From contig JAHEDT010000001.1 of the NCBI GenBank assembly GCA_024641085.1, positions 124,001-188,000 of the forward strand: a stretch of DNA of 64,000 nucleotides, given 5' to 3'. Each line of letters starts with the position of its first letter. The stretch's first letter is position 1. The position numbers and the translations under genes were made by a program. Source of the DNA: Geobacteraceae bacterium. GTDB lineage: Bacteria > Desulfobacterota > Desulfuromonadia > Desulfuromonadales > BM103. This document shows positions 43,107-46,856 of the stretch, piece by piece. The notes under the pieces were generated by a model. That model did no database searches and was not told where the DNA came from. It saw only the letters and a program-made list of their open reading frames with translations.

Positions 43107-45209
43107 ATGGCCCGAACCGATCACCACAACCGCCTGCTGGATGCCGTGACTGCTGATTTCGCCGTACTGCGCGGCCGCCCGCAGCCCTTTGGAGTCAGTC
43201 TCCTGGCCGGAGGGGTCAACTTTGCCGTCTTTTCACGCCATGCCACGGCGCTGACCCTGGTGCTGTTTCGGCCGGGGGACCCGGAACCGCTGGTCGAGTT
43301 CCCTTTCGATCCGCAGATCAATCGCACCGGTGATGTCTGGCATATCGCCCTGCAGGGACTGGTCCCCGGGTTCGAGTACGGCTACCGGACGGCCCGGGAG
43401 AGTTCTGATGACTCGCCGGTACATCGATTCGATGCCGGGCAGGTGTTGCTCGATCCCTATGCCAGGGCGCTTTCCGGGCCGTCGCTGTGGCGGGCGGCCA
43501 CCCGCTGCGCGTCCCGCCAGGGCAACTGGCGCAGTCTGCTGGTTGACGACACCTTCGACTGGGGTCATGACCGGCCGCTCAACCATCATCTGGCCGACTC
43601 GGTGATCTATGAGATGCACGTCCGCGGCTTTACCCGAGACGCCTCCTCGGGGGTCAGCCACCCGGGCACTTTTCGCGGCGTGATGGAAAAGATCCCCTAC
43701 CTGAAGGAACTGGGCATCACCGCGGTGGAACTCCTGCCGGTTACCGAGTTCGACGAGGCTGACAATTACCGCAGGAATCCCCTGACCGGGGAGCCCCTGC
43801 ATAACTTCTGGGGCTATCATCCCTTGAGTTTTTTCGCTCCGAAGGCCGCCTACGCGGTGGAGATGACAGCCGGTGCCCAGGTCCGTGAGTTCAAGGAGAT
43901 GGTCAAGGCGTTGCACGCCGCAGGGATAGAAGTCATTCTCGATATGGTTTTCAATCATACCGGTGAAGGCAACCAGCAAGGGCGCTCTCTCTCACTGCGC
44001 GGACTCGACAACAGCGTCTACTATATTGTCGACCCCCAAAGCGGCGCCTACGCCAACTACTCCGGCTGCGGCAACACCGTCAACTGCAATCACCCGGTGG
44101 TGCGCGACCTGATCATCGATGCGCTGTGCTACTGGGTCACCGAGATGCGTGTCGATGGGTTCCGCTTCGACCTGGCCTCGATCCTCGGCCGTGGTTCCGA
44201 CGGCGCAGTGCTCACCAATCCACCGCTTTTGGAGCGGATCGCCGGCAACCCGGTGCTGGCTGACACCAAGCTGATCGCCGAGGCCTGGGACGCCGCCGGC
44301 CTCTACCAGGTCGGCACTTTTCCCAATTTCGGTCGCTGGGCGGAATGGAACGGCAAGTTCCGTGACGACCTCCGCCGCTTCGTGCGCGGCGACCGGGGTA
44401 TGGTGTCGATTCTGGCAACCCGCCTGGCCGGCAGTTCCGACCTCTACCAGGATGACGGAAGAGCCCCTTTCCACAGTATCAATTTCGTCACCAGCCACGA
44501 CGGCTTCACCCTGGCGGACCTGGTCAGTTACGCGCAAAAGCACAATGAGGCCAACGGCGAATACGGCGCCGATGGCGACGATCATAATTTCAGTGCCAAT
44601 CATGGATGCGAAGGGACGACGGACGATCCGGCCATCGGCGCGCTGCGTGCCAGACAGGTGCACAACTTCGCCACCCTGCTGGTTCTCGCCCACGGCGTGC
44701 CGATGCTCCTCGCCGGGGATGAAATGGCTCGCAGCCAGGGTGGCAACAACAACGCCTGGTGCCAGGACAATGCTACCAGCTGGCTCGACTGGACCCGGCT
44801 CGCAGCCAACCGTGAGCTGTTTGATTTCTTTCGCAACCTGATTGCCTTCCGGAAAAGGTACAGTCTGCTGCGGCCGCGTCACTTCGAGGGAGAAGAGAGC
44901 GGCGAGCGTCGCTTGACCTGGCACGGGAGCCAGTTGCATCATCCGGACTGGTCGGAAGACTCCCACGCCCTGGCCATGCACCTGCAGGGTAAACCGGAGG
45001 AGGCTGAGATCTATCTGATCGCCAGCGCGGCTCTGAACGATGCAGATTTTGCCCTGCCAGGTCCGGACCCACAAAGGCCCTGGCGGCGTTTCGTTGACAC
45101 GACGCTTGCTGCCGGGCATGCAAGCTGCCCCCCGGGAGAGGAGGCGCCGTTGCCGGGGCAGACCTGTTACCGGGTGCAGGGACGTTCCGTGGTCGTTCTG
45201 GTGAGATAA
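43107..45209 (+). CDS. glgX: Glycogen debranching enzyme GlgX
   Basis: 700 residues of the GH13_11 family. An N-terminal CBM48 domain (about 15-125) is followed by the catalytic barrel. DGFRFDLAS supplies the nucleophile Asp355, LIAEAWD the acid/base Glu at about 392 and TSHD the third acid Asp465. GNNNAWCQDN is typical of GlgX/isoamylases. The enzyme hydrolyses alpha-1,6 branches of glycogen limit dextrins in the cytoplasm. No other glycogen gene is next to it; the ROK kinase at 8-9 kb may use released glucose. Confidence 0.93.
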   Translation: MARTDHHNRLLDAVTADFAVLRGRPQPFGVSLLAGGVNFAVFSRHATALTLVLFRPGDPEPLVEFPFDPQINRTGDVWHIALQGLVPGFEYGYRTARESSDDSPVHRFDAGQVLLDPYARALSGPSLWRAATRCASRQGNWRSLLVDDTFDWGHDRPLNHHLADSVIYEMHVRGFTRDASSGVSHPGTFRGVMEKIPYLKELGITAVELLPVTEFDEADNYRRNPLTGEPLHNFWGYHPLSFFAPKAAYAVEMTAGAQVREFKEMVKALHAAGIEVILDMVFNHTGEGNQQGRSLSLRGLDNSVYYIVDPQSGAYANYSGCGNTVNCNHPVVRDLIIDALCYWVTEMRVDGFRFDLASILGRGSDGAVLTNPPLLERIAGNPVLADTKLIAEAWDAAGLYQVGTFPNFGRWAEWNGKFRDDLRRFVRGDRGMVSILATRLAGSSDLYQDDGRAPFHSINFVTSHDGFTLADLVSYAQKHNEANGEYGADGDDHNFSANHGCEGTTDDPAIGALRARQVHNFATLLVLAHGVPMLLAGDEMARSQGGNNNAWCQDNATSWLDWTRLAANRELFDFFRNLIAFRKRYSLLRPRHFEGEESGERRLTWHGSQLHHPDWSEDSHALAMHLQGKPEEAEIYLIASAALNDADFALPGPDPQRPWRRFVDTTLAAGHASCPPGEEAPLPGQTCYRVQGRSVVVLVR

Positions 45210-45250: not shown

Positions 45251-46369
45251 CTAGTCGGTCTTGGCCCGCAGCTCCTCGATCAGGGCTGCGCCCTGGGCGA
45301 GGCTGTCGAAGATGATCGCCGAACTGATGGTCGCCGAGGTGACAGCGTCCACCTTGGGGTCGAAGGGGCGCGGCGCGGTGAGGTATTGACCCACCACCCG
45401 ACGGCGCATTGTTGTCACATCCTCATCGTTCCACAATACGTTTCCATACTTGGTCACCTGCAGCGGTTCGAAGCCGACGATCCGCGTCGTCATATCGAAG
45501 ACGTAGATGAAGTGCACGTCGTGGCAGACGTCGCAGACCGTCTGACGGCTGGCGACTTCGGCAAAGAGCCGTACACTCTGCTCCCCCCTGCGCATAACCG
45601 CAGTATAAACGCGCCGACCACTGCGCAGTTTGACCGGTCCGAAGGCAATCAGCTCGCCCCCGGTCTTGAGGAAGGCCTGCCGCACTTTTTCAGCCAGTCG
45701 CCAATCACTGTAGAGGGGCGTGATCGCCGTGCGCTTGCGCACGGCCTCTGCCCCCTGTCGCCGCAGGGAATCCACGTCAGCGCTGGCGAGTTGACGGAGT
45801 TCGCCAAACAGCTTGCTGACATCCGCATTCAACCCCAGGTGGGTTTTGGCCACCACGCCGGATTGGCCGGAGCTGTCCTGGCGGACATAAATGGAGAATG
45901 GTGTGGCACTGCCGCCCAGGGCGCGATGGGAGGCAAAACGTGGATCAGCGACAATCGGAAACGGCACCTGGTACGTCCGGCGAAAAGCCTCGACCTCCTC
46001 GGGCAGGTTGCCCACGGCGATGCCGAGCAGCTTGATGCGACCGCGGGTCGCCGGGGTTTTTTCGATCAGCTTGAACAGCTCGTTGTAAGACGGCACCTGC
46101 TGCTGGCAGTGGACGCAATGCACGTTGAGCAGCTCGACTAGGAGCAGCTCCGCTCTGACCTGGCTGGGTGTGAAGCTGGTGATGCCGAGTCCGAGGTAGC
46201 TGAGGTCGTGGCCCGGCCCGGTGAGGGTCAGTGCCAGTTCCGGAAAGGGATCGCCAAAAGCGATCAGCGGCCGCTCCTCGGCAGCAGCCGGAGCAAGGGT
46301 CAGCAGAGCCAGCAGCGGGACCGCCATCAGGTAACGTAGTTGTTTGATCATTCCAGGGCTCGATTTCAT
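45251..46369 (-). CDS. Exported thioredoxin-like / CxxCH / FMN-binding-type fusion protein
   Basis: 372 residues from the ATG at 46369, which overlaps the stop of the small TM gene (ATGA). A signal peptide ends near residue 30 (LALLTLAPAAA), so the protein is periplasmic. Residues about 35-185 form a TlpA/redoxin-like domain with the pair CVHC at 85-88. Residues 279-283 read CDVCH, a c-type heme attachment motif. Residues 290-370 resemble FMN_bind domains, with VDAVTSATISS (340-350) like the SGATxTS flavinylation motif of NqrC/RnfG. All three parts are seen directly; heme and flavin attachment are inference. A membrane-tethered electron-transfer or thiol-reduction role fits. No cytochrome maturation or flavin transferase gene is adjacent. 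Confidence 0.75.
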   Translation of the reverse strand: MKSSPGMIKQLRYLMAVPLLALLTLAPAAAEERPLIAFGDPFPELALTLTGPGHDLSYLGLGITSFTPSQVRAELLLVELLNVHCVHCQQQVPSYNELFKLIEKTPATRGRIKLLGIAVGNLPEEVEAFRRTYQVPFPIVADPRFASHRALGGSATPFSIYVRQDSSGQSGVVAKTHLGLNADVSKLFGELRQLASADVDSLRRQGAEAVRKRTAITPLYSDWRLAEKVRQAFLKTGGELIAFGPVKLRSGRRVYTAVMRRGEQSVRLFAEVASRQTVCDVCHDVHFIYVFDMTTRIVGFEPLQVTKYGNVLWNDEDVTTMRRRVVGQYLTAPRPFDPKVDAVTSATISSAIIFDSLAQGAALIEELRAKTD

Positions 46370-46503
46370 TCTGCTGCGATCAGAGAGAGAACCACCTGCA
46401 GCACCAGGACAAGCGTCACCAGAACGACAACGCCGCCGATAACGCAAAGCAGGATTATGCCGAGGGTCTTTTTGATTGCCGTCTCACTTGACCCAGTCTT
46501 CAT
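46366..46503 (-). CDS. 45-residue single-TM protein
   Basis: The ATG at 46503 overlaps the end of the selenoprotein gene by 20 bp, and its stop overlaps the next start (ATGA). The product is a short polar N-terminus (MKTGSSETAIKKT) followed by one long hydrophobic helix (residues 14-43). It is too small and simple for family assignment. Tight coupling on both sides suggests it anchors or links the two redox proteins at the membrane; that is inference. Confidence 0.6.
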   Translation of the reverse strand: MKTGSSETAIKKTLGIILLCVIGGVVVLVTLVLVLQVVLSLIAAE

Positions 46504-46822
46504 AAAGCTCTGCGTTGAAGCCGATGATGAAGCGGTCCTTGACCCGGTAGGTCGGTGCGCGCAGGTTTCCGCTCGGCCCCATCGCCTGGGCCAGGATCGC
46601 CTGCTTACCGTCGGCCGCAGTAGTGAAGTCCTGCACCTTCTTCCCCTTGGCAACAGTCACGGTTTTTGCCGTTTTCAGCAGTTCCCAAGAGGCGTCCTCG
46701 TCAAAGCGGGTTTGCTTGGCATCGACGACTTGTTTGGCACTGACCTGTTTGGACTCAAGAAACTCTTGAGCATTTTTACAGGAGGTTCAACCTTTGCGCA
46801 GGTAGGCCCAATCGATTTTCAT
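46484..46822 (-). CDS. ArsC/Spx-like selenoprotein with in-frame UGA
   Basis: 112 residues including a selenocysteine at position 12, encoded by TGA at 46787-46789. Translation through the UGA gives MKIDWAYLRKGU then TSCKNAQEFLES, so the redox motif is UxxC where ArsC/Spx relatives have CxxC. The rest, up to GNLRAPTYRVKDRFIIGFN, is uninterrupted and typical of ArsC-like thioredoxin folds. The ATG has AAAGGAG 6 bp upstream. A SECIS-like hairpin follows the UGA. ArsC-type selenoproteins are known in some deltaproteobacteria, which supports the reading. The substrate is unknown; arsenate reduction should not be assumed. It heads an overlapping three-gene operon. Confidence 0.8.
46754..46770 (-). 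promoter_or_regulatory. Bacterial SECIS-like hairpin after the UGA codon
   Basis: In the transcript CTCAAG, loop AGTTT and CTTGAG form a perfect 6-bp stem within the coding sequence. The loop lies 22-27 nt past the UGA and has a G at its second position. Bacterial SECIS consensus calls for an apical loop about 16-37 nt downstream with a G among its first two bases. Confidence 0.7.
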
Positions 46823-46856
46823 AACGATCTCCTTTCTGTCCCGAGTTCTTCCATCA

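Follow-up and report, generated by a model that had tools for sequence, protein, structure and literature searches.

ArsC-like selenoproteins were described by Zhang et al. (2006; PMC1794560) in Desulfotalea psychrophila, and the same paper lists a distant homolog of ArsC in Desulfuromonas acetoxidans. A 2022 review (PMC9312934) includes an arsenate reductase-like UxxC family, and a 2026 review (PMC13188914) tabulates the NCBI family model NF041106 under the name 'Arsenate reductase-like protein, UxxC'. We analyzed a 64-kb stretch of bacterial DNA (the window) in which a preliminary description had proposed a hidden selenoprotein gene with an in-frame UGA. The reading holds: homologs, covariation in the selenocysteine insertion sequence (SECIS), Sec-decoding genes and the curated family model all support it, and positions 46484-46822 of the minus strand very probably encode a genuine bacterial selenoprotein that belongs to NF041106 (Table 1).

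Table 1. Features of the locus, in window coordinates.
Feature	Position	Strand	Remarks
ArsC-like selenoprotein gene, very probable (NF041106, ArsC_rel_Se_1)	46484..46822	-	112 aa, single in-frame UGA
Ribosome-binding site AGGAG	46829..46833	-	6 nt 5' of the ATG; comparable sites in most homologs
UGA codon 12, very probably read as selenocysteine, residue 1 of UxxC	46787..46789	-	UGA at 38/38 orthologous loci
Cys15 codon TGT, second redox residue of UxxC	46778..46780	-	invariant among 36 aligned proteins
Putative bacterial SECIS hairpin, 6-8 bp, G in apical loop	46754..46770	-	standard pairs in 86% of cells; compensatory changes
Small single-helix membrane ORF, 45 aa	46366..46503	-	overlaps the selenoprotein gene; outside the selenoprotein family
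Thioredoxin-like (AhpC/TSA) protein	45251..46369	-	downstream; CxxC motif (CVHC), signal-peptide-like N-terminus

The reading frame opens with the ATG at 46822 and runs through 11 leader codons (MKIDWAYLRKG) to the TGA at 46789-46787, beyond which 100 codons stay open up to the terminator TGA at 46486-46484. The sequence therefore matches the claim that an 11-residue start with a ribosome-binding site is joined through the TGA to a 100-residue domain in the same frame, and the translation, which carries the motif U12-T-S-C15, places the UGA at the first redox position of UxxC, as had been described. Across the 64-kb window just 2 TGAs lie in a frame that has a start preceded by a ribosome-binding site, 80 or more open codons on the 3' side of the TGA and a Cys at +3. 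Besides the present codon, this applies to the TGA at 43252, which falls within the glgX ORF (43107-45209), in a different frame. The gene was also said to be missed by gene calling. This is right for naive ORF calling, in which the selenocysteine codon passes for an internal stop. The family is nonetheless visible to the field, since NCBI maintains a dedicated model for it.

The read-through protein scored 124.8 bits against NF041106 ('ArsC family (seleno)protein', cut-off 85), the match spanning positions 1-107 of the 107 in the profile, and 20.2 bits against TIGR01617 (Spx/MgsR), which is below the curated cut-off of 75.05. Scanning representative genomes for homologs yielded 39 loci, 38 of which are orthologs, from Desulfuromonadales, Desulfobulbaceae (Desulfobulbales), Desulfobacterales and related draft genomes; one ortholog (L058) ends after 22 residues at a contig end. 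The scan covers close relatives, and because its patterns leave out the UGA it is not biased to Sec forms. All 36 aligned proteins matched NF041106. Codon 12 is UGA at each of the 38 orthologous loci, and UxxC is present in 37 of them. In the remaining ortholog (L044, 2995-3321) the motif is UxxS, with the resolving Cys either lost or altered by a sequencing error. Extending the search to 395 sampled genomes of the phylum gave NF041106 members over the cut-off in 28 genomes, with exactly one TGA in 28/28. The preliminary description had suggested looking among homologs for a Cys in place of U at position 12; the position is indeed constant, as UGA, and a Cys form over the NF041106 cut-off was found neither among the 38 loci nor in the 395-genome sample. 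That the family is Sec-only in the sampled genomes points to an important role for selenium chemistry in its reaction. Weaker matches in the phylum, such as L121 with UTTC, fall below the cut-off and were set aside as a different ArsC-like group. The distant ArsC/Spx-like proteins with U-T-T-C at L121 (about 1500-1800) and L120 (about 1500-1790) apparently make up an ArsC-type selenoprotein group of their own, with scores under that cut-off.

On the 3' side of the UGA, the perfect 6-bp hairpin that had been reported 20 to 36 nt downstream was recovered at 46770-46754 (CUCAAG-AGUUU-CUUGAG; U of the UGA counted as 1), with a G in its apical loop. In RNA folding the stem lengthened to 8 bp and enclosed a GUU loop (z = -2.26). 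We used resampling of synonymous codons as a control for the protein code. Measured in this way, the hairpin of the window copy is stronger than expected (P = 0.011), the mean best stem of the 38 sequences (the window and 37 homologs) is 7.0 bp against 4.3 bp expected, and the best stem reaches P < 0.05 in 20 of the 38. When the six pairs were followed through the 38-sequence alignment, 86% of the cells held standard pairs, compared with 81% in shuffles and 22-55% with the helix slid. Compensatory changes were found at columns 32/46 (U-A to G-C, C-G and A-U), 34/44 and 37/41, the last of which closes the apical loop and is C-G instead of A-U in seven sequences. As for pairs changed on both sides, their number does not exceed that of the shuffles, 80 of 500 of which reach it; since events are also shared between related sequences, the covariation alone is moderate evidence. 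Judged from its sequence and position, the hairpin fits a bacterial SECIS.

We then consider the Sec machinery. The selD, selB and selA genes adjoin each other on one contig of the same assembly (C146, 6537-11247), each over its cut-off, with profile scores of 618.6 bits for selA, 397.2 bits for selB and 373.9 bits for SelD, and SelD carries a UGA of its own at the usual Sec site (SKSSGUAAK). The assembly gave no Rfam match for selC; the sole match over the cut-off was a tRNA-Trp, and the eight best Rfam matches, taken as tRNA-Sec candidates, proved by ARAGORN to be ordinary Trp, Ser, Leu, Gly, Tyr and Thr tRNAs. Pattern and DNA searches of the assembly did not find selC either, nor was it found beside selA and selB on their contig. 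Among relatives, selC is present in 18 of 20. Of 20 selC loci that were examined, 15 have a YedF-type protein next to selC, and at least 10 have ispG beyond the YedF-type gene. Neither yedF nor ispG was found in the genome under study. Besides this genome (G000), the drafts of a member of its genus (G001) and of a member of its family (G011) lack selC, yedF and ispG alike. The ispG product is a housekeeping enzyme of the isoprenoid pathway. Because the neighbor yedF and the housekeeping gene ispG are missing along with selC, a gap in assembly or binning, shared by the three drafts, is likelier than gene loss; the completeness estimate of 99.5% is compatible with a gap as small as the ispG-yedF-selC block. 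The sel genes whose presence the preliminary description had proposed to check are thus there in the case of selA, selB and selD, whereas selC, whose absence had been given as a possible refutation, was not recovered from the assembly and apparently lies in a gap.

The absence of selC bears on two other explanations of the locus. The UGA might be a mutated Cys codon, with the downstream ORF a relic or internally started, and a genome from which selC was not recovered would agree with this. Yet the UGA occupies the same codon at 38 loci from several orders, the SECIS is conserved, and purifying selection has acted on both sides of the UGA. Comparing codons 1-11 of 35 homologs with the window copy gave 164 synonymous and 3 nonsynonymous codon differences, which shows that the leader is coding and excludes a chance origin for it; third positions hold 165 of the 170 base differences. 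The downstream part is likewise conserved as protein, with G82, G85, L87, R88, A89, P90, G101 and Y107 invariant in the 36 aligned sequences. Conservation of the UGA makes a pseudogene or chance arrangement untenable, and we give it practically no weight. Alternatively, the selenoprotein could be real in the lineage, with selC and yedF lost in this species or genus and the UGA consequently terminating translation or being suppressed. Both genes are indeed absent from this genome, from that of the same genus (G001) and from that of the same family (G011). However, ispG, which adjoins yedF in relatives, is absent from the same three drafts, pointing to a missing block of assembly; moreover, this genome retains intact selA, selB and Sec-containing selD genes, and the ArsC-like gene itself shows no decay. 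Such a loss is therefore highly improbable.

As to what the protein does, its predicted fold is of the Spx/ArsC type and thioredoxin-like. The AlphaFold2 model built from the 36-sequence alignment has a pLDDT of 95 and a pTM of 0.88, and among solved structures it comes nearest to Spx and proteins of the ArsC family (Foldseek E 1.5e-4, TM about 0.55; Z 7-9, VIA Z 8.8 with Spx). Searching solved structures with the alignment profile also returned Spx, at E 7.6e-5 to 2.8e-4, with CTSC of Spx over UTSC; the single-sequence search of solved structures returned nothing useful. The structure matches are moderate, and function is accordingly assigned by fold class only: the protein is probably a stand-alone selenol/thiol UxxC oxidoreductase of the ArsC/Spx-like class. 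The family name and the ArsC-type fold matches would also suit a true arsenate reductase, but Pfam gave no match at E <= 0.01, the profiles nearest to it in sequence, its own family apart, are Spx and YruB/Grx-like, and the UxxC aligns over the CxxC of Spx. We therefore regard arsenate reduction as unlikely, and the name ArsC refers to the fold rather than to a measured activity. A transcription regulator switched by selenocysteine, in which an Spx-type protein of Desulfuromonadales and Desulfobulbales would sense redox state through selenium and bind RNA polymerase, is highly improbable.

For the oxidoreductase that we favor, a working scheme can be drawn. Given the SECIS and the sel genes, SelB with Sec-tRNA would bind the hairpin just 3' of the UGA, and selenocysteine would be inserted at residue 12 in place of termination. 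The UxxC motif and the fold suggest that the U12 selenol may then attack an oxidized or electrophilic substrate, that C15 could resolve the intermediate as a selenenyl-sulfide (U-S bond), and that a thioredoxin- or glutaredoxin-type donor (a cellular dithiol) would reduce this bond and regenerate the enzyme.

At its 3' end the gene is overlapped by the 45-aa ORF, whose stop overlaps the ATG of the thioredoxin-like gene, and this small ORF is possibly translationally coupled. In a close relative (L022) the 45-aa peptide is kept with mostly synonymous changes, and a TGA stands just after its ATG, because of which the true start of the ORF is uncertain. Among the homologs examined, the thioredoxin-like gene adjoins the selenoprotein gene only in this closest relative. 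Since downstream genes vary among homologs, we inferred no partner and dropped operon function as a guide.

These results indicate that a true selenoprotein can be picked out by reading raw DNA alone, and NF041106 is a compact candidate among orphan selenoprotein families for the assignment of a function. The discovery itself is modest because the family is already catalogued. Decoding would follow the SelB-dependent system (SelA, SelB, SelC and SelD), of which selA, selB and selD are shared and selC was not recovered in this assembly; the hairpin starts 16 nt after the UGA. The predicted fold is shared with Spx (B. subtilis; 3gfk, 1z3e and 6ghb), at 14-19% identity in structural alignments; where Spx has CxxC, the protein studied here has UxxC, with Sec in the place of the first Cys. 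The ArsC-like selenoproteins of D. psychrophila and D. acetoxidans (PMC1794560) come from the same clades and fit the same description, which is the basis on which we liken them. The closest likeness is to the family of NF041106 and PMC13188914, with a full-length match over the curated cut-off, Sec first in UxxC and no difference of substance. Because such proteins are already described in PMC1794560, PMC9312934 and PMC13188914, the locus is an additional member of a small family of redox proteins that is already on record in selenium biology, a further ortholog from a Desulfuromonadales-type draft genome: a well supported selenoprotein, and an unsurprising one.
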